A stretch of 24,582 nucleotides of DNA, taken from IMG/VR virus record IMGVR_UViG_3300043395_003969, positions 1-24,582 of that record, one strand, 5' to 3'. Positions within the stretch are counted from its first letter, which is position 1; each line of letters starts with the position of its first letter. The position numbers and the translations under genes were made by a program. Under the pieces are notes generated by a model that had not been told where the DNA came from, did not search any database, and saw only the letters and a program-made list of their open reading frames with translations. Shown here piece after piece: positions 6,267 through 23,717 of this stretch. The DNA is from a virus.

Positions 6267-7842
6267 GACCCTTGTCCTTCCTGGCGTTTTCGATCGCCGG
6301 CATGTAGGCGACCCAAAATGTTGTGTTGCCCCAGGTCGCAAGATTCAAGCCCAACTCGCCGAACCATTGTTGTGCGGCCGCCCGAATGCTCGCGCGTGAC
6401 GCTCCCGCGCCCAGCAGCACGCCGTGCGGAGCCAGATGAAACACCCAGTGGGAAATAGCCTGCCAGACGCTGTCTCCATAATCCGACAAGACGACGATGT
6501 CGAGCTGTTCGCAGTCCAGATATCGCTTGGCCGCATCCGAGGCGCTGGCTTCATCTAAAATGCGCGCACGGTCTTTAATGCCGGCCAGGTTCTCGTGCCG
6601 CAGGTTGCGAAAGCTGTCGATGCAGTAGACGTAGCTCCCTTCCGGCGCCCCGGCGAGCAATGACACGACTTCCTCGCCCGCGAAATTGCCGGCCACAAGC
6701 ATCCTCAGTGGGCGACGCAGCAGTTTACCCAGTTCGCGCGCGGCATCGTGCAGGCACTCTGCATCCGCTGAGCTAAGTATTTGGCCGACGATTTTGTGGC
6801 CGTAGACCATGCAATGCGGTTGCTCAGCCGGCGCAGGGACAGGAGGAATCTCCTCGGCGGGCAGGGGGTGAATCGGTTCCGGCCTGCCGAAATCCACTTC
6901 TCTCATCTCTTCCCGAACGCTGATCGGGTTCAAGACAGCCTCCTGATAGATTGCGCTGACGTGCTCCAGACAGACAGGTTCTGGCGTTCCCACGCATTTC
7001 TGTTTCCAATGGCCGGCCCAAGCGTCCCAGTTGCAAAACACGGCGTCCTGGCCGAGCTTCGCCAGAGCGGCCAATTGAATCTCGCGCGTGTTCGTCACGT
7101 CCTCGGTGCTGGCCTTCTGCGTTTGCATCTGATCTGTGAACTCGTACCAAAACCAACTTTGCATGCGGATGCTGCGGAGCGTCTTCGGGAGATCTGCCTT
7201 GCCATCCCGAAACGCAATCAACACATCCTCCAGCGGACGAGTTTCGATGGGCAGCAAGTCAAACGCATTGGTCGAATAGATGATGCAGCCGGTTGGCCCG
7301 GCCGCGATGGGCTGAATCCCACGCATTTGCGCCGCGTGGGTTCGGCTGTACGCCTCAAAGCGATAGCCGCTGTGTTTTTTCTCGTCCGGCCCGACAGTTT
7401 CGTCGCTCTCGCAATAGAACACGTACACATTTTCTTCGCCGCGATGGACCGGATGCGGCGGCGGGCCACAGTAGGGAGCGCAGACGACTGTTGGGAGCTC
7501 GCGCTTTAAGCGCTCGAACACGAAGTCAAAGCTGGTGTCCCAGAACGGCTTGGCCCACGGGTAACGTGGAGAATCCAGATTCAAGTCCGGTTGATTGTCG
7601 TTGTCGAGCATGAACACCATGTCGAAACCGCCATCGCGAGCTTCCTTGGCAATCCGGTTGCGCTCCATTGTCAGGGGCACGTCACCGTATTTGCGGACTT
7701 GCACCCGGCTAATTCGCGGGTCGGCTTTGATGGTCACGGCGAGCCGCATCAGCCAGAACGCCAAATCAATCTGGACGGTAGCGATGCCACCGTTCCCACC
7801 GTAGGCCAGACACGCCACCAACACATCGACTTGCGATTTCAT
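6229..7842 (-). CDS. Glycosyltransferase-like / Rossmann methyltransferase-like fusion (537 aa)
   Basis: Two probable domains. Residues 1 to ~250 look like a GT-A nucleotide-sugar fold: an opening beta strand VDVLVACLAYGG, a helix with ERNRIAKEA (60-67), and a DxD-type site FMLDNDNQPD (77-86) that would bind a metal and nucleotide sugar. Residues ~340-510 look like a Rossmann fold of the class I methyltransferase type: MLVAGNFAGEEVVSLLAG as the glycine-rich loop, YCIDSF as the next acidic strand end, and LDIVVLSDYGD as a later strand. ATG 7842 follows GGAG by nine bases. The gene lies between the capsid genes and the terminase, so a role in modifying capsid, DNA or the host surface is possible. 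The family assignments are by eye; substrate and activity are unknown. Confidence 0.7.
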   Translation of the reverse strand: MKSQVDVLVACLAYGGNGGIATVQIDLAFWLMRLAVTIKADPRISRVQVRKYGDVPLTMERNRIAKEARDGGFDMVFMLDNDNQPDLNLDSPRYPWAKPFWDTSFDFVFERLKRELPTVVCAPYCGPPPHPVHRGEENVYVFYCESDETVGPDEKKHSGYRFEAYSRTHAAQMRGIQPIAAGPTGCIIYSTNAFDLLPIETRPLEDVLIAFRDGKADLPKTLRSIRMQSWFWYEFTDQMQTQKASTEDVTNTREIQLAALAKLGQDAVFCNWDAWAGHWKQKCVGTPEPVCLEHVSAIYQEAVLNPISVREEMREVDFGRPEPIHPLPAEEIPPVPAPAEQPHCMVYGHKIVGQILSSADAECLHDAARELGKLLRRPLRMLVAGNFAGEEVVSLLAGAPEGSYVYCIDSFRNLRHENLAGIKDRARILDEASASDAAKRYLDCEQLDIVVLSDYGDSVWQAISHWVFHLAPHGVLLGAGASRASIRAAAQQWFGELGLNLATWGNTTFWVAYMPAIENARKDKGHVETVSAGHHSV

Positions 7843-7916
7843 CTGTCAACTCCGTTTGAGTAAGGGGAGGCGGAATTGACCACACTCTGACGATCTTACG
7901 ACAGGTTGCAAGCCTC

Positions 7917-7956
7917 GAAACAAAAACGGCCGCCGAACAGAAGTTCGACGGCCGCC
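7917..7956 (-). terminator. Intrinsic terminator after the capsid genes
   Basis: On the minus strand a 12-bp stem (7943-7954 with 7927-7938, one G-U pair, four-base loop 7939-7942) is followed by GTTTTTGTTT. It lies 60 bases beyond the stop of the decoration-like gene and 75 bases before the start of the glycosyltransferase-like gene. It would cut or reduce transcription between the highly expressed capsid genes and the downstream packaging genes. Confidence 0.8.
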
Positions 7957-8014
7957 TCCCGATGAGAGTCTTCTCAGACCCTCCCTCATCTCTTTCGGCC
8001 CGGTCAGCCGATCG

Positions 8015-8653
8015 TCACGCGAAACCGAAATTCGTATCCGCCAACACATCGGCATCGATTTGTGCGGCGGTCTTCGCCGACATCGCAACGCCAAACCGGT
8101 TCACGATCGCCTTCGTGTGCGACCCATCGGTTGTGCCCGTCGATGTCGAAGTCAGCGCCATTGCCTGAACGCGGCCGGAGGTAACTGACTGACTCGTCGC
8201 CGCCGTCAAGGCAATCAACTTATCTCCCGCCGCAATCGCGTTCGTCGCATCGCCGGCCAGCCCGTTCAGAACCAATGTTGGCCCCTTGACGACGATCCAA
8301 AACAGATCGTTGTTGGCCACGCCGCCCGCGGGCAAGAATTCGTCTACCACGCCCGCGCATTCCTGTGCGTCCGTAGTGCAATAGCCGTCAACCTGTTTGC
8401 CGCGGTAGCCGGCCTTCCAAGTCACGACGCGCTTCGGCAGCAGGGTCGTGCCGGAAACGTTGCGCACCAGCATGCAAGTCACCTGCCGATTGCTGCGCCG
8501 GGTCTTGGCGCCCGTACTCAAAGTCGGATCGACGTCGTCGAAGACTTTCGTCGTCCCTTCCAAATGATCTGCCATGCCTGAGGTCAGCGTTCGTGCGGCA
8601 TTGCCTGCCAACCACGTTTTGCCGCGAAGCGGCAGTCCGCCTGTGACGTTCAT
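8015..8653 (-). CDS. Capsid decoration-like or minor head protein (212 aa)
   Basis: Beta-rich, Gly/Ala/Thr/Val-rich protein without membrane segments. The middle part (about residues 60-135) alternates short strands and turns: KRVVTWKAGYRGKQVDG, then AGVVDEFLPAGGVANND, then LFWIVVKGPTLVL. This pattern, and position directly after the major capsid gene, fit a small beta-sandwich capsid decoration (cement) protein; I cannot assign a named family. The C-terminal ~40 residues are more helical. ATG 8653 is preceded by AAGGGAG at nine bases. An intrinsic terminator follows the gene. A head-fibre or head-tail connector role is an alternative. Confidence 0.7.
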   Translation of the reverse strand: MNVTGGLPLRGKTWLAGNAARTLTSGMADHLEGTTKVFDDVDPTLSTGAKTRRSNRQVTCMLVRNVSGTTLLPKRVVTWKAGYRGKQVDGYCTTDAQECAGVVDEFLPAGGVANNDLFWIVVKGPTLVLNGLAGDATNAIAAGDKLIALTAATSQSVTSGRVQAMALTSTSTGTTDGSHTKAIVNRFGVAMSAKTAAQIDADVLADTNFGFA

Positions 8654-11577: not shown

Positions 11578-11810
11578 GACTCTCGCTTAAAAAGATCATG
11601 CTCATGCTCACGCTCTCTAACTTGGTGGATCGGATTGCCACGATCACGCAACAGCGGTTTGAGTTGGCCGAACTCGTCGAGAAGCTTTTGGACCTGATTG
11701 AGGGCAATGACTCCGCTGAAGCTGCAGCCCTCCGCGACGCCGCTCGGAAGTTATTTGCTGACCATTCAGCCGACCGACGAGGCGGCCGGGAAGGGGCCTG
11801 TGATGGGTGA
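11574..11810 (+). CDS. Small helical hypothetical protein (78 aa)
   Basis: Begins with a GTG overlapping the preceding stop (GTGA); internal ATGs at 11598 and 11604 are alternatives giving 68-70 residues. The protein is mostly helical and acidic in the middle (RFELAELVEKLLDLIEGNDSAEAAALRDAARKLF, quoted in parts by eye), ending in a basic Arg/Gly tail that overlaps the next gene by eight bases. I do not recognise it; composition suggests a small dimerising helical protein. Confidence 0.55.
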   Translation: MRLSLKKIMLMLTLSNLVDRIATITQQRFELAELVEKLLDLIEGNDSAEAAALRDAARKLFADHSADRRGGREGACDG

Positions 11811-12609
11811 CGTCACCAAAATTCAATGGGCACACCATACCTGGAATCCTTGGCGCGGTTGCACGCACGCGATTTTAGCGGACGGCACGGAGCATCCAGG
11901 GTGTGCTCGCTGCTACGCCGAGGCGATGTCGAAACGCAACTCGACCGTACTCGGCGAATGGGGGCCAGGAGCTCACCGCGCTGTCGCTTCCGAGAGTTAC
12001 TGGAAGACTCCGCTTCGATGGAATCAGAAAGCGAGCGCGGCCAGAGAACGCCGGCGTGTGTTCTGCGCGAGCCTCGCCGACATCTTCGAGGATCGGGCCG
12101 ACCTAATTCCTTCGCGGGTGCGAGTGTTTCGCACGATCGACCAATGTCCTTGGCTGGATTTCTTACTGTTGACGAAAAGGCCGCAAAACATTCGGCGCCT
12201 GTGGCCTGGGTTGCTCGGTCGTAGCAACGTGTGGTTGGGAACCTCGGTCAGCGATCAGCAGACGGCCGAGGAACTCTTGCCGCAACTGATTACCTGCCGC
12301 GATCTCGCACCAGTGCTGTTCGCGTCCGCGGAGCCTTTGCTGGGACCGATCGACTTTCGCTTCAGCGTCTTTGGCGTGTCTGCGATCGAGACGCTAGAGT
12401 GGATCATCTTTGGAGGGGAGAGCGGCCCGCACGCCCGACCGTGTAACGTCAATTGGATTCGCGACGGGCTTGAGCAGTGCGAGCAAGTCCCCGTCCCAGC
12501 CTTCGTCAAGCAACTTGGGTCGCAGGTTTGCCGATATTTCTTAGCTGATCCAAAAGGCGGTGATCCGTCAGAATGGCCGCACGATTTACGAGTTCGACAA
12601 TTCCCATGA
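11803..12609 (+). CDS. Phage Gp37/Gp68 family protein (DUF5131), 268 aa
   Basis: The N-terminus carries the family signature: KIQWAHHTWNPWRGC, then a Cys pair CARCYAEAMSKR. The Cys pattern is C20-X13-C34-X2-C37, which from general knowledge of the family resembles a radical-SAM-like three-Cys cluster; most members I recall have a shorter first spacing, so the DGTEHP insertion is unusual. Later motifs also fit: VFCASLADIFED, LLLTKRP, VWLGTSVSDQ, SAEPLLGPI and IIFGGESGPHARP. The frame is open back to 11698, but ATG 11803 follows AAGGGG by six bases and starts exactly at the family N-terminus. Biochemical function is unknown; it is common in phage and mobile DNA. Confidence 0.9.
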   Translation: MGDVTKIQWAHHTWNPWRGCTHAILADGTEHPGCARCYAEAMSKRNSTVLGEWGPGAHRAVASESYWKTPLRWNQKASAARERRRVFCASLADIFEDRADLIPSRVRVFRTIDQCPWLDFLLLTKRPQNIRRLWPGLLGRSNVWLGTSVSDQQTAEELLPQLITCRDLAPVLFASAEPLLGPIDFRFSVFGVSAIETLEWIIFGGESGPHARPCNVNWIRDGLEQCEQVPVPAFVKQLGSQVCRYFLADPKGGDPSEWPHDLRVRQFP

Positions 12610-16228: not shown

Positions 16229-16909
16229 ATGGCCAGTCTTGTGTCGAAATACGCCCCAACGACGTTTGAGGACGTCGCTGGGCAAAGCGAAGCCGTAGCG
16301 AAGCTGCGGCAGTTGGAGTCTCGCGGCTGGGACGGCCGCGTGTTATGGATCACCGGGAAGTCGGGGACTGGCAAGAGCACGTTGGCCCGCCTTGTGGCCG
16401 CCAGTGCCGCCAGTGATCCTTGCTGTGTCGAGACGATCAATGCTCAGGATTTGAGTCTTGATCGTTGCCGGGAGCTGGATCGACAGTGCCGGTTCGCTCC
16501 GGTGTGGGGCGGGGTCCACGCGATCGTCGTCAACGAAGCGCATCGGCTGCGTGGCCCCGTGATGTCGTACCTGAACGACGTCCTCGAAGCGCCGCATGTG
16601 GTGCGGAATTCGTGCTGGATTTTCACAACCACGCTGGACGGGGAGCTCAAGCTGTTTGACGAAGACGAGATTGAGCGGGTGCCGTTTGGCTCGCGGACAA
16701 TTCCCCTGCGGCTGAAGTACGATGAAGGGGTGACATTGGAGTTCGCGTTGCGTTGTCAGAAAATTGCCAAAGCCGAAGGACTCGACGGCAAAGATTTGAC
16801 GGACTACGTGGCGTTGGTGCGGAAACACAATTGGAATATGCGGGAGTGCCTCAACGCGATCGACGCGGGTGAGATGCTGCCGCCAGTGACTCAACGAAAG
16901 GCAGGATAG
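16229..16909 (+). CDS. AAA+ ATPase, clamp-loader / RuvB-like (226 aa)
   Basis: The N-terminal KYAPTTFEDVAGQSEAVAKL is the typical lead-in of clamp-loader and RuvB-type AAA+ domains. Walker A is GKSGTGKST (43-51). The Walker B region is HAIVVNEAHRL (98-108), with Asn in place of the usual Asp. Sensor 1 lies at WIFTTT (130-135), and a sensor-2-like Arg in NWNMRECLNAID (201-212). I recall similar phage ATPases with the VNEAH variant, so Asn may be normal for this subfamily, but I cannot verify it. No lid or collar oligomerisation domain of a full DnaX is present. AAAGGA lies about ten bases before the ATG. A role in phage DNA replication or recombination is inferred; the actual partner is unknown. 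Confidence 0.85.
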   Translation: MASLVSKYAPTTFEDVAGQSEAVAKLRQLESRGWDGRVLWITGKSGTGKSTLARLVAASAASDPCCVETINAQDLSLDRCRELDRQCRFAPVWGGVHAIVVNEAHRLRGPVMSYLNDVLEAPHVVRNSCWIFTTTLDGELKLFDEDEIERVPFGSRTIPLRLKYDEGVTLEFALRCQKIAKAEGLDGKDLTDYVALVRKHNWNMRECLNAIDAGEMLPPVTQRKAG

Positions 16910-17428: not shown

Positions 17429-17538
17429 CCTGACTCTCGCCGGGGTCTTTTCACAGGCCGAAACGCGCTTCGGCGCGTCGCACGGTAGTTGCCGTGCCTG
17501 ATGATGGCCAGTTCCGCCAGAAACCGAGGGAGCCTACC

Positions 17539-18897
17539 ATGTTCGATTTCACGTTTGATGACATTCTGTCCGCCACGGTATCGGCCGCTGACAGTGCCGA
17601 TGCGCCGGTTGTCCTTGGCGAACAACACGACCTGAGCAAGATCAACACTGGCTCTGGCAGCGGACAGCGGACGCTGCAAAGGCAAATTGACGCGCTGAAG
17701 AGCGGCGCATATTGGGATGAAGCCGAATACGGCATTTCCCGCGAGGCTCAAATTGCCAAGCTGCAATTGGCCAATACGCCTGAGGCGCAAGCCCGTGAAT
17801 TGGAAGAGATGACTCAGCGTGCTCTTCGGCGCGCTGGTCTGGACGCAACGACTGGCCGCGTGGCGCTGATGGTCGCCGGAAAACTGCCCTGGCATGGGTT
17901 AGGAGTGAACGTTGCTGCCGCCACGACGTGGGAGCATGCCGCCAGACTGGGCGGCTTGGACTGGCTCGTCCTGAAGACGACGCTGCTGTTTCGGGACGCG
18001 CAAGGCGAACAGCACGAAGCTAAGGGCCGCTACGCTCTGGTGCGTTCAGACACCGGCCGGATGCTCGATGCGTGCGCTCAATACAAGCCGATCCAGAATT
18101 CAGAGGCATTTGCGTTTCTGGATGAGGTGCTCGGTTCCCACGGCGCCCACTACGAGGTTGCTGGGGCGCTGTTCGGAGGCGAGCAGGTCTTTATGCTCGC
18201 CCGGTTCCCCCAGCATGCTTTCTCAATCAATGGCAGCGACCGGCAAGAGGCGTTTGTCGCCTTCACCAATCCTCATACGGTTGGCAAAGCGGCGAAGTGC
18301 TTCGGGACCAGTGTGCGAATCGAGTGCGCCAACACGCACCGCATCGCATGCGGCAAGGATGCCGCCAAGGGCATCTCCATCCCGCACACCGGCGACGTCA
18401 AACGCAAGATTCGGGCAGCGCAAGAAGCATTGGGGATCACGGTCAAACAATTCGACGTGTACCGTGAAGGTTGTGAGGCGATGGTCAGCAAGCCCATGCC
18501 GATCAAGGCTTACGCCAACGACGTCCTGGATGCTGTGTTGGATATCACCGCAGCGGACGCTATGAAGGGAGCGGACGCTTTGGCCGCTGCTCTCAACGTT
18601 CACGAAGCGCAGCGCAAGCTGATGCGTGCGTCGTTCGAGAAGAAAATTGAGCGGCGCGGCGAGATTCTCCAAGATATCCTCGAACGATACGAGTCCCGCC
18701 AGAACGGTACGAACGGGATGCGAGGTACAGCCTGGGCGGCTTTCAATGCCGTCACGGACCATGTTGACCATAACCGGATTGGCCGGAACTCGTCCGACGC
18801 GGAAACTTGGCAGTCCCGGCGCTTTGAGGCCGCGCTGCTGGGGAAAGGTGACGACATGAAACAAGTGGCATTCGAGTTAGCGACCGCTGCGGTGTAG
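17539..18897 (+). CDS. DUF932 / phage-plasmid-like protein (452 aa)
   Basis: The DUF932 signature GKLPWHGLGVNV is at 114-125, followed by the family's alternating pattern: LDWLVLKTTLLF, ALVRSDTGRML, PIQNSEAFAFLDEVL, GGEQVFMLARFP and FTNPHTVGKA. About 110 N-terminal residues precede the domain and look like a separate acidic and helical extension. The frame is open to 17494, but GGAG six bases before ATG 17539 fixes the start (context GGAGCCTACCATG). DUF932 proteins are widespread on plasmids and phages, and the function is not established. The long structured leader suggests its expression is specially controlled. Confidence 0.88.
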   Translation: MFDFTFDDILSATVSAADSADAPVVLGEQHDLSKINTGSGSGQRTLQRQIDALKSGAYWDEAEYGISREAQIAKLQLANTPEAQARELEEMTQRALRRAGLDATTGRVALMVAGKLPWHGLGVNVAAATTWEHAARLGGLDWLVLKTTLLFRDAQGEQHEAKGRYALVRSDTGRMLDACAQYKPIQNSEAFAFLDEVLGSHGAHYEVAGALFGGEQVFMLARFPQHAFSINGSDRQEAFVAFTNPHTVGKAAKCFGTSVRIECANTHRIACGKDAAKGISIPHTGDVKRKIRAAQEALGITVKQFDVYREGCEAMVSKPMPIKAYANDVLDAVLDITAADAMKGADALAAALNVHEAQRKLMRASFEKKIERRGEILQDILERYESRQNGTNGMRGTAWAAFNAVTDHVDHNRIGRNSSDAETWQSRRFEAALLGKGDDMKQVAFELATAAV

Positions 18898-20350: not shown

Positions 20351-21232
20351 CTACGACGCGATCGCCGCGGCCTTCTGCGGGAAGTACCGGGTTAACATTT
20401 GGTTGACCCGTTTGCGAATCGCTCTCCGAGTGTCGGCGTCATGAGCCGCTTCCGCCAGCGCGCGTTCGACAGCCTGCTCGAACGAGACGAGCTTCGCTTC
20501 CCAGGCCGGCGGTTTCGGCGTTTCTGGCGCGTCGATCCGCATGTTGTGCGGTCGAGTCGCTGTCTCGGCAACGGCCCGCTCAACGTCAGACGAAAGTCCA
20601 CCTGGAGCACAACGAGCCGCATCCAGCAGCGCCGCCGCTTCCGTCACGCTGCTCTTGGCCGGCGCGATTTGGGCGTCAGTGACGAGCGACTTCAAGTCAA
20701 CGCCATTCACTCGGTGGACGATGGGCGCTACCTTTTCGACTGCCGCAGCGAACTCGATATCGCGGCGCACTTGCCTGGGACTGACGCCAGTCTGCTCGGC
20801 AACTGCTTGGCAAGCGGCGGCCTGCGTTCCGAGCCGCTTCTTCGCTAGGGCTGCCATTGCCGCGCGGTGCAAGCTGATTTCGGCTTCGTTCAAGTTCCGT
20901 TTGCCGAGCTGCTGCTGCTCGATGAAATACAGCACCGCGTTTCGATCCTCGAATTTGACCTGCACGATGTCCGGCGGAGTCGGTGGCGTCCCTCGCTTGA
21001 GCCGGCCAAGCAGGCCGGTCGGCTGAGCCGCTTCAAATGCCGCCAGACGCCGCTTGTAGTCTTGCAGACGGTGATGCCCATCCACCAGCAGCTTGTGGCC
21101 TTCCCAAACGATGAGTGGCGACAGGTATCCGTGCTCGTCAATCGAGCGCCGCATGTCGTCCCGTTCCTCGTCACTCTGAGGCCGAAGCCTCGCCTCAAAT
21201 TCCGGGTCAATCAGAATGTCTTTCCAAAGCAT
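20351..21232 (-). CDS. ParB/Srx-domain DNA-binding protein (293 aa)
   Basis: The N-terminal ParB domain includes the nucleotide-binding motif LVDGHHRLQDYK (49-60), preceded by SIDEHGYLSPLIV. A RNLNEAEISLH segment and a helix-turn-helix (AAACQAVAEQTGVSPRQVRRDIEF, by parts) follow, as in ParB-family DNA binders. The C-terminus is basic and helical (RRAIRKRVNQMLTRYF). GGAGG lies eight bases before ATG 21232; the longer frame to 21268 is rejected. In phages and plasmids such proteins act in partition, transcription or replication control. It is the last gene of the replication operon. No ParA is in the window, so partition cannot be assumed. A repeated 15-bp site lies directly upstream. Confidence 0.87.
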   Translation of the reverse strand: MLWKDILIDPEFEARLRPQSDEERDDMRRSIDEHGYLSPLIVWEGHKLLVDGHHRLQDYKRRLAAFEAAQPTGLLGRLKRGTPPTPPDIVQVKFEDRNAVLYFIEQQQLGKRNLNEAEISLHRAAMAALAKKRLGTQAAACQAVAEQTGVSPRQVRRDIEFAAAVEKVAPIVHRVNGVDLKSLVTDAQIAPAKSSVTEAAALLDAARCAPGGLSSDVERAVAETATRPHNMRIDAPETPKPPAWEAKLVSFEQAVERALAEAAHDADTRRAIRKRVNQMLTRYFPQKAAAIAS

Positions 21233-21252
21233 GTGGTTTCCCTCCGAACTCG

Positions 21253-21267
21253 ATGCCGAATTTGGCA
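21253..21267. repeat. 15-bp repeated near-palindrome, copy 2 (candidate operator)
   Basis: Identical to 17264-17278 (ATGCCGAATTTGGCA). It lies 21 bases upstream of the ParB-like start codon, an expected place for an autoregulatory operator. Two other small palindromes, CCGATA-TG-TATCGG (21291-21304) and CGGCAG-TTT-CTGCCG (21302-21316), fill the rest of this 112-base gap. Confidence 0.5.
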
Positions 21268-21344
21268 ACTCCCCTGTGGAGCCGCGCTCACCGATATGTA
21301 TCGGCAGTTTCTGCCGGAGGACTTGAGCTCCGCGAGTTCACACA

Positions 21345-22754
21345 TCACACCGTCCAATCTTTCGACGGAAACGCGCGAGATGCCGCGTCAATTGCCGCCT
21401 CGCGACCGCGCGCGAGATCGGCAAACCGAGTGCATGCGGCCATCCAGGCCATCGAAACGATTCCCGTTTGCCCGTTGCGGTTCTTTGCGCAGATCACGTC
21501 GATCTCGCCAGGTCGCTCTTCGGGCTCAAAATCCGAGGGACGATGCAAGAACAAAACCTTGTCCGCGTCCTGCTCAATGGAACCAGACTCCCGTAAATCG
21601 GCCAATCGGGGACGCTTATCCTCTCTGTTCTCGATGTTCCGATTCATCTGAGCCAGCACGACGATGGGGATACCAAGTTCCTTCGCCAGTATCTTCAGCG
21701 ATTTAGTGATCGACGCCACCTCTTGCTCTCGTGGCCGATTGTTGGATGGCGGTAGGTCAGGCTGAACGAGCTGCAAGTAGTCCACCAACAGCATGCCGAT
21801 GTTCTCTTTGCGTTTAGCCCGCCTGGCTGTCGCCGCGATCGACGAAAAACGTTGGGACGGCCTGTCGTCGATCCGTAGGGGCATCTTGGAAAGCTTGCCC
21901 GCCGTCTCCAGCAAAATCTCGCGTTCTGTGGTATCGAGCCCCATGCAGTTCTTGAGCTTCCTGCCTGACACTCCACTCTCAATGGAAAGTAAGCGTTCGG
22001 ACCATTCCAGCTTGGTCATTTCCAAACTGATCATCACCGAGGGAATCCCACGCTTTCCAAGATTCAAAGACAAACACGTCGCGAATGCGGATTTACCAAC
22101 TCCTGGTCGCGCTGCGACGATCACCAGTTCTCCATCTCCCAATCCGATCAACAACTCGTCCAAATCGGCGAAACCCGTTGCCGTCCCATGTGGCTGCCCG
22201 CTGTCGATTCGCGATTGGATTTCCGCCCACGCTTCAACCATCACATCACGGATCGAGACATCGACTTCCGGGTTGTAACGTTCGGTGATGGTCCGCAGGA
22301 CCGCTTCCGCTTTGGCAGCGATCTCGTCATCGGAGCCTGTGTCCGCAACCTCCAAAACCTCTCGGCAGCCGTAAACAGCGATGCGGGATTTCCAGGACGA
22401 GGCAACCAGCGCGGCGTAGTAGGCCGCATGGGACGAGTTTGGCACCGTCGCCATGATCTCGGTAAAGTGTTTCACTCCGCCGACTTGCTCGAATTGCTTC
22501 CGCCTGTCGAGTTCGGTGGCCACAGTCACGGCATCAATGGGAAACGTCGATCGACGAAGGCTCTGAATCGCCTCCCAGATCAACCGATGCGCGTCGGCGT
22601 AGAACCAGTCGGACTCCAGCAACGGTAGGTCATCAAGCGTGTCGGCCGGGGACGGAGAAACGAGCACGCTTCCAATGACAGCCATCTCGGCTTCGAGATT
22701 CTGAGGCGGTTGACCGTTGCGCGATGATTTTGGTTGGGGATTTGTGGCTGGCAT
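21345..22754 (-). CDS. dnaB: Replicative DNA helicase, DnaB family (469 aa)
   Basis: Hexameric helicase that unwinds DNA at the replication fork. The N-terminal domain starts with the typical QNLEAEMAVIGSVL; the RecA-like C-terminal domain has Walker A AARPGVGKSAFA (about 219-230), Walker B MLLVDYLQLVQP (about 325-336) and the late motif LRESGSIEQDADKVLFLHR. Length is normal for DnaB and no key residue appears changed. A TTG at 22760 extends the frame, but GGAGG seven bases before ATG 22754 sets the start. The gene follows the initiator gene by 57 bases, an initiator-helicase order similar to lambda O-P or P22-type modules. Confidence 0.96.
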   Translation of the reverse strand: MPATNPQPKSSRNGQPPQNLEAEMAVIGSVLVSPSPADTLDDLPLLESDWFYADAHRLIWEAIQSLRRSTFPIDAVTVATELDRRKQFEQVGGVKHFTEIMATVPNSSHAAYYAALVASSWKSRIAVYGCREVLEVADTGSDDEIAAKAEAVLRTITERYNPEVDVSIRDVMVEAWAEIQSRIDSGQPHGTATGFADLDELLIGLGDGELVIVAARPGVGKSAFATCLSLNLGKRGIPSVMISLEMTKLEWSERLLSIESGVSGRKLKNCMGLDTTEREILLETAGKLSKMPLRIDDRPSQRFSSIAATARRAKRKENIGMLLVDYLQLVQPDLPPSNNRPREQEVASITKSLKILAKELGIPIVVLAQMNRNIENREDKRPRLADLRESGSIEQDADKVLFLHRPSDFEPEERPGEIDVICAKNRNGQTGIVSMAWMAACTRFADLARGREAAIDAASRAFPSKDWTV

Positions 22755-22811: not shown

Positions 22812-23717
22812 TCACGCCGGAACCGGCTCGCCCCGTGCAGCCTCAATGCGCACTTTCTTGAGCCATTGCTGACCCTCATCGGCCAGATAGGGGGCTGGAT
22901 TCCGGCAAGCCTTCGCAAAATAGGCGGCCGGGCGCGGTTTGGTTCTGGCAATTTCGATCAGTCCGAGCAGCGCGTCCCGTGTCTTTTCCGCATGAATCCC
23001 CAATTTCGGTCCCAGACCGTGACCCTTCCACCAGTGATACACGAACTCTTCGCGGTCAACGGCCCTTTTGAGCCCCCAGAGTTCCGCGGGCATCGCGGGA
23101 AGGCTGGCAAGCTGAGACTTTGGTTCCTGAGCTTGTGGTTCACTCGAAATGATTGAAGAAGATTCATTCATTCCTTCATTCAGACTTTCAACGCAAGTGG
23201 ACAAGGTGGACTGCGGTGGACAGTCGGTGGACTGCGGTGGACACGGAGTGGACACGGAGTGGACAGCGGGTGGACAAGAAGTGGACACGGAGTGGACAGA
23301 CTTAAACTCAGGAATGGCAACGGGTTGCTCGATCGAATCGAACCAGTCTCGGAGGTTTTGTGTATTCATCCAGATTGAGTGCGTGGATACCGCCATCACG
23401 CCGCGCTGAACCCAAACCTGAAGCGCTTTGTGAAAACCAGAATGGTCGCATCGCAACCCGCGGACGCACTCGCAGTTCGCACGACACCAAGCCGCAGCTT
23501 CCCGGATCGTCAAATCGACCCGGCGGATACCGCCTTCCAGCACTACCTTGTCCGGGTGTGAGTCGAGCAGCAACACAATCGCCCGCTGAATTCTCGCAAC
23601 GTCCTTGGAACGCATCTGGGCATCAAGGATCTTTGTGTTGCGGCCCTTGCGAATCCGAGCCACTTCAGCGTCTACATCCGCGTCAATTTGTTCAATATCA
23701 AGAGACAACTGAGACAT
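22812..23717 (-). CDS. Replication initiation protein with internal origin repeats (301 aa)
   Basis: GGAGG lies seven bases before ATG 23717; the longer frame to 23816 crosses a hairpin and is rejected. The N-terminal ~130 residues contain a probable winged helix (RRVDLTIREAAAWCRANCEC to ALQVWVQRGVMAV). A Ser/Thr/Pro/Cys-rich linker follows, encoded by ten GTGGAC repeats. The C-terminal ~100 residues (LPAMPAELWGLKRAVDREEF to YLADEGQQWLKKVRIEAAR) look like a helical helicase- or DnaA-contact domain. Position before dnaB, domain layout and iterons within the linker all match a lambda O-like initiator that binds its own gene. I cannot name a specific family. Confidence 0.78.
   Translation of the reverse strand: MSQLSLDIEQIDADVDAEVARIRKGRNTKILDAQMRSKDVARIQRAIVLLLDSHPDKVVLEGGIRRVDLTIREAAAWCRANCECVRGLRCDHSGFHKALQVWVQRGVMAVSTHSIWMNTQNLRDWFDSIEQPVAIPEFKSVHSVSTSCPPAVHSVSTPCPPQSTDCPPQSTLSTCVESLNEGMNESSSIISSEPQAQEPKSQLASLPAMPAELWGLKRAVDREEFVYHWWKGHGLGPKLGIHAEKTRDALLGLIEIARTKPRPAAYFAKACRNPAPYLADEGQQWLKKVRIEAARGEPVPA
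23197..23297. repeat. Ten phased GTGGAC iterons: candidate replication origin
   Basis: GTGGAC starts at 23197, 23206, 23216, 23227, 23237, 23248, 23259, 23270, 23281 and 23292, at spacings of 9, 10, 11, 10 and then five times 11 bases. This is close to one helical turn, so all copies face the same side of the DNA. The spacing is not a multiple of three, so protein repeats do not explain it. An AT-rich stretch (23151-23190, 27 of 40 bases A or T, with ATTC repeats) adjoins on the left, as an unwinding element would. Confidence 0.75.

Follow-up and report, generated by a model that had tools for sequence, protein, structure and literature searches.

The ten GTGGAC hexamers of this record and the AT-rich tract adjoining them probably form a phage replication origin placed inside the coding sequence of the phage's own initiator, a layout like that of lambda gene O. 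The window, by which we mean the whole stretch of DNA analyzed, is a partial virus record of 24,582 bp with terminase, portal, major head, and DnaB genes. The array, its phasing, the constraint at the DNA level, the least stable tract, and the gene order are observed directly, and this anatomy supports in part the in-gene origin suggested by an earlier note; GC skew, named there as a check, shows no clear turn at 23.2 kb in this partial 24.6-kb record. In the mechanism that we propose, the N-terminal domain of the initiator would bind the GTGGAC sites, all on one face of the helix, and about ten protomers would align as a continuous, filament-like oligomer with one protomer per turn. The strain of this assembly would open the adjoining least stable tract, and the C-terminal domain would help to place the helicase of the neighboring gene, DnaB, on the strand laid bare. 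In-gene origins are classically those of lambdoid phages. The literature searched yielded no description of GTGGAC iterons or of planctomycete phage origins, and we make no wider claim that they are unpublished.

The array lies in a minus-strand open reading frame (ORF) of 301 amino acids (positions 22812 to 23717), the putative replication initiator gene. The next gene, which starts 57 bp past the end of this ORF, encodes a DnaB-like replicative helicase (21345 to 22754, minus strand; PF03796, 8e-80; PF00772, 4.7e-25; phrog_19, 9.4e-98). We infer the initiator label of the 301-residue protein from this context. Pfam and PHROGs searches assigned the protein to no Pfam family and to no significant PHROG, with neither an O-like PHROG match at an E value of ≤1 nor a match to phrog_2509. 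No relatives were found in IMG/VR viral contigs (pattern method), INPHARED phages, PLSDB (tblastn), or the PDB, nor in searches of 294 and 392 Planctomycetota genomes. The single match among the 294 genomes falls on the repeat stretch of the protein. In the search of 392 genomes, matches at an E value of ≤0.1 (48/392) were about as many as expected by chance, and the best had an E value of 0.0012 over 50 residues. A single-sequence AlphaFold2 model of the protein was poor (mean pLDDT, 41.8). Its N-terminal domain (approximately residues 1 to 138; 23304 to 23717, minus strand) has the order HHH-EE-H-H-EE, which at this low confidence would fit a winged helix, and its C-terminal domain (approximately residues 211 to 301; 22815 to 23087, minus strand), presumed to recruit the helicase, is modeled as helical, also with low confidence. 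Between them the model places a disordered linker at approximately residues 128 to 210. Within the limits of that low confidence, this is the region encoding the iterons and the AT-rich tract, in agreement with the assignment of the array to the linker-coding part of the gene by the earlier note. The modeled domain order is compatible with an initiator without proving one.

Ten exact copies of GTGGAC occupy positions 23197 to 23297, starting on the plus strand at 23197, 23206, 23216, 23227, 23237, 23248, 23259, 23270, 23281, and 23292, with start-to-start gaps of 9, 10, 11, 10, 11, 11, 11, 11, and 11 bp. On the minus strand, which is the coding strand, the copies read [T/A]GTCCAC[Y], with a pyrimidine as the next base in all of them. 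Seven more copies are scattered elsewhere in the window. After dinucleotide shuffling of the window (200 rounds), the most frequent non-overlapping 6-mer reached at most 5 copies per 110 bp versus 10 observed; in 2000 synonymous-codon shuffles of the ORF, GTCCAC averaged 1.7 copies and peaked at 6. The ten copies at 9- to 11-bp spacing that had been reported from the letters of the sequence are all exact and far above the shuffle expectation. Part of the interval assigned to them (23151 to 23297) needs correction, as the array covers 23197 to 23297 and the remainder is the AT-rich tract.

Such an array could in principle be a minisatellite evolving neutrally, or could owe its repeats to selection on the linker peptide, and 11-bp GTGGAC minisatellites are known elsewhere (e.g., loci L007, L091, and L131). 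The ten copies here, however, are distributed over the three codon frames (2, 3, and 5 copies) and encode peptides that differ with the frame (VH, ST, and CPP), so that the conserved thing cannot be the peptide. The cores carry 0 mismatches in 60 positions versus 9 in 30 for the 5-nucleotide spacers (Fisher's exact test, 2e-5; six 5-nucleotide spacers counted, three shorter ones excluded), and this combination of invariant cores and varying spacers argues against a fresh tandem duplication. The spacings of 9 to 11 bp, moreover, hold the helical phase: at 10.5 bp, R was 0.875 (P = 0.0087 versus random gaps of 8 to 13 bp). We consider the minisatellite or peptide explanation quite improbable. 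The observations support a constraint on the array at the level of DNA rather than peptide, as was proposed when the period was first seen to break the codon triplet.

The putative DNA unwinding element (DUE) lies at 23139 to 23188, starting 8 bp beyond the last iteron in the coding direction. This 68% AT tract has the lowest nearest-neighbor stability of all 50-bp stretches in the 24.6-kb window, and the 60-bp and 100-bp minima of the window also fall in this region; the AT-rich tract noted earlier beside the array is real. Its coding strand includes GAATGAAGGAATGAATGAAT, and it bears a GAAT-like four-base repeat. When codons were shuffled with the protein sequence fixed, an equally weak 50-mer arose in 12% of trials (P = 0.123), so the tract is no independent proof of selection, and its depth as a DUE is marginal once the amino acid composition is fixed.

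The position of the array beside this tract also bears on two readings that assign it no part in replication. An operator array serving autorepression of the operon by the protein would draw on the facts that short-site arrays near the start of a gene can be operators and that initiators often autoregulate; the array, however, is situated some 420 bp into the gene, where it adjoins the least stable DNA, and we judge this reading very improbable. A plasmid-type centromere, in the form of a parC-like 11-bp repeat array falling within the gene by coincidence, seems extremely improbable. ParMRC centromeres are 11-bp repeat arrays of similar copy number and period, and the ORF at 20351 to 21268 encodes a weak ParB-like protein (phrog_1033, 1.6e-5), but no ParA, ParM, or ParR match was found among the scanned ORFs of this partial record, and a centromere would leave both the adjoining least stable DNA and the position beside dnaB unexplained. 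The centromere, the minisatellite, and the operator array each explain less than does an in-gene origin.

The GTGGAC motif by itself is no mark of an origin, because arrays of it at 11 bp are found away from replication genes as well (e.g., dispersed in Pedobacter and in a Blastocatellia MAG). A scan of genome contigs found at least 120 loci, which among the matches listed were mostly minisatellites and dispersed intergenic arrays and not initiators. Among L070 to L189, individual genomes have runs of 4 to 6 copies at 11 bp spread across many of their contigs, for the most part not in long ORFs, as in Pedobacter (e.g., L076, L078, and L104), Mesonia (L074), and Blastocatellia MAG-247 (L072, L075, and L082). 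Three close copies of GTGGAC were present in 19 of 294 planctomycete genomes, and the five of these that were inspected (L254 and L256 to L259) showed no initiator at the site. Two viral contigs carry clusters of other kinds. One of 6 kb (L272) has two facing TGTCCAC/GTGGACA clusters (positions 321 to 388 and 656 to 724) outside ORFs of at least 100 amino acids, possibly an origin, and the other (L025, positions 7293 to 8209) has many irregularly spaced GTGGAC/GTCCAC clusters within about 900 bp.

GTGGAC at 11-bp spacing does recur in the linker of phrog_2509 "replication initiation" proteins, at the nearly identical loci L005, L008, L011, and L023 and at the more distant L024 and L031. A scan of viral contigs for four copies at 11 bp returned 15 loci, with an initiator only at L005, L008, and L011 and the rest minisatellite-like or unexplained. 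Their relatives in planctomycete genomes and in named phages, among them epsilon15, Rac ydaU, and Xanthomonas CP2 (12 of the 46 phage records that matched were taken), carry other in-gene repeats, namely, GCGTTAC and TACCAACC, each at 12 bp, GTCCGCA at 11 bp, and GCAATGC at 23 to 24 bp (L208 to L210 excluded from this survey). For most of the named phages, the codon-shuffle P values of the repeats, taken locus by locus, were 0.15 to 1.0 and not significant; what supports these repeats is that they recur at one position across related genes. Most of the phrog_2509-type initiators examined share the order N-domain, in-gene repeats, least stable tract, and C-domain. At 18 of 23 loci, the least stable 50-bp stretch of the gene fell in the linker and ranked in the lowest 1% for its locus; exceptions included L205, with its least stable DNA outside the linker, and L195 and L197, with theirs in the N-domain. 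Truncated or weak partial matches (L206 and L208 to L210) were excluded from the stability and codon-shuffle sets, as were L011 and L023 from the latter (near-identical to L005/L008), and the alignment took in 16 of 19 (L199, L201, and L024 excluded).

The weak tract in the linker of phrog_2509-type loci is usually the purine sequence TAGAGAAGAGAAGAGA, often beside the in-gene repeats. A purine-rich tract, often with this 5-nucleotide repeat, was seen in the named phages (L190 to L201) and in L203, L204, L005, L008, L024, and L031, commonly directly after the in-gene repeats and usually as the least stable DNA of the locus. It encodes REEKRREE, with AGA codons even in the GC-rich Xanthomonas phages, and has the look of a DUE embedded in protein-coding sequence. 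Summed over 21 ORFs, AGR codons made up 40 of 45 arginine codons in the weak tract versus 87 of 430 elsewhere, an excess that is partly circular because choosing the least stable tract favors AGA codons by itself. The N-domain of the window protein showed no homology to that of phrog_2509 (hhalign probability, 0.2%).

GTCCAC arrays were also observed just upstream of one phrog_4617/phrog_270-like initiator gene (L273, positions 155 to 201) and within another (L275, positions 2761 to 2805). Profile comparisons found no relation among the N-domains of the window protein, phrog_2509, and the phrog_4617/270-like proteins. We advance tentatively, and with considerable doubt, a wider reading in which GTGGAC at helical pitch would be a recurrent origin module, placed in or beside genes of initiator families with sequence-unrelated N-terminal domains. 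Such a module might carry a DnaA-like filament of one protomer per turn that runs into a repeat-bearing melting tract, rather than a compact O-some assembled on long iterons few in number. The filament might be formed by a partner that the families share, for example host DnaA, or by a winged-helix fold common to them.

The host is likely a planctomycete, because the DnaB of the window is nearest to Planctomycetota DnaB (42 to 47% identity; 294 genomes of that phylum searched). A DnaB scan of viral contigs gave distant matches only, mostly 24% identical, and a separate terminase scan returned nothing. Other genes of the window encode a clamp-loader-like AAA protein (16229 to 16909; phrog_5846, 3.6e-19), a DUF5131 protein (11698 to 12609; 3.3e-55), and a DUF932 protein (17494 to 18897; 4.1e-40). 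Two genes with a DnaA C-terminal domain are present in most of 59 Planctomycetota genomes (e.g., G025 and G049).

Host DnaA is the main rival as binder of the array, given the likeness of the core to DnaA boxes and its presence alongside N-domains that are unrelated to one another. The copies would then be low-affinity boxes: DnaA would fill the 11-bp array and open the AT-rich tract, and the phage protein would only bring DnaB. The core TGTCCAC agrees with DnaA-box positions 2 to 8 save position 3, and its occurrence with three sequence-unrelated N-terminal domains is what a shared host factor would predict, although the three families came to light through a search for GTGGAC itself. Locus L005 has TTGTCCACA, which was also found 6 times in 43 planctomycete dnaA-region loci. 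The commonest matches in those regions, however, end in A (TTTTCCACA, 18; TCTTCCACA, 15; TTATCCACA, 7), whereas the final A is present in 0 of 10 and the first T in 2 of 10 window copies, which are not boxes of the TTNTCCACA type with a terminal A. Initiators of the same layout, furthermore, have repeats unlike DnaA boxes (GCGTTAC, GCAATGC, and TACCAACC). We regard the DnaA-box reading as unlikely and favor an array bound by the phage's own initiator.

An origin at this place would mean that the in-gene layout also occurs in a phage whose DnaB is planctomycete-like and whose initiator is an orphan, in a different geometry of ten sites, one per turn. Origins of uncultured phages could be sought cheaply by this combination of features: in-gene repeats placed without regard to reading frame, adjoining the least stable DNA and upstream of dnaB or dnaC. 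The comparison further suggests that in phrog_2509 initiators, as in epsilon15 and Rac, the REEKRREE-like linker is the DNA element of a melting tract.

Among known systems, the window shares the layout of most phrog_2509-type initiators (epsilon15, Rac YdaU, and Xanthomonas CP2), and those at L005, L008, L024, and L031 also use GTGGAC at 11 bp. Their tract, however, is the purine 5-nucleotide repeat TAGAGAAGAGAAGAGA, whereas that of the window is GAAT-like, and the N-domains are not homologous. The iterons of plasmids (RK2, F, and R6K) are much longer than the repeat of the window, and the candidate origin here, unlike theirs, lies inside a coding sequence. The likeness to these plasmids is in direct repeats bound by an initiator beside a repeat-bearing DUE, as described for them in the cited part of a review (PMC10797057). 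With the DnaA-box arrays of oriC, for which the same part of that review proposes a DnaA filament at the chromosomal origin, the window shares short asymmetric tandem sites beside a DUE (PMC10797057), although its copies lack the terminal A of planctomycete DnaA boxes. Lambda gene O, in the cited sections of PMC7466680, holds iterons and an AT-rich tract in midgene, with 4 iterons in lambda and 6 in Stx phages, each lambda iteron being a 19-bp imperfect inverted repeat. The analogy with lambda drawn in the earlier note holds for the layout, as the repeats lie in the middle of the putative initiator ORF and adjoin the least stable tract, beside a helicase-loading function in lambda and the helicase gene here (PMC7466680). 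Unlike lambda, the window encodes a protein without an O-family match, and the neighboring gene is DnaB itself. The iteron is also, as had been stated, shorter and more numerous than that of lambda, with ten asymmetric 6-bp cores one turn apart against four 19-bp iterons in the sections cited (PMC7466680). The in-gene layout is known; what is new is the form that it takes here, with ten asymmetric hexamers spaced at helical pitch within the gene of an orphan initiator.
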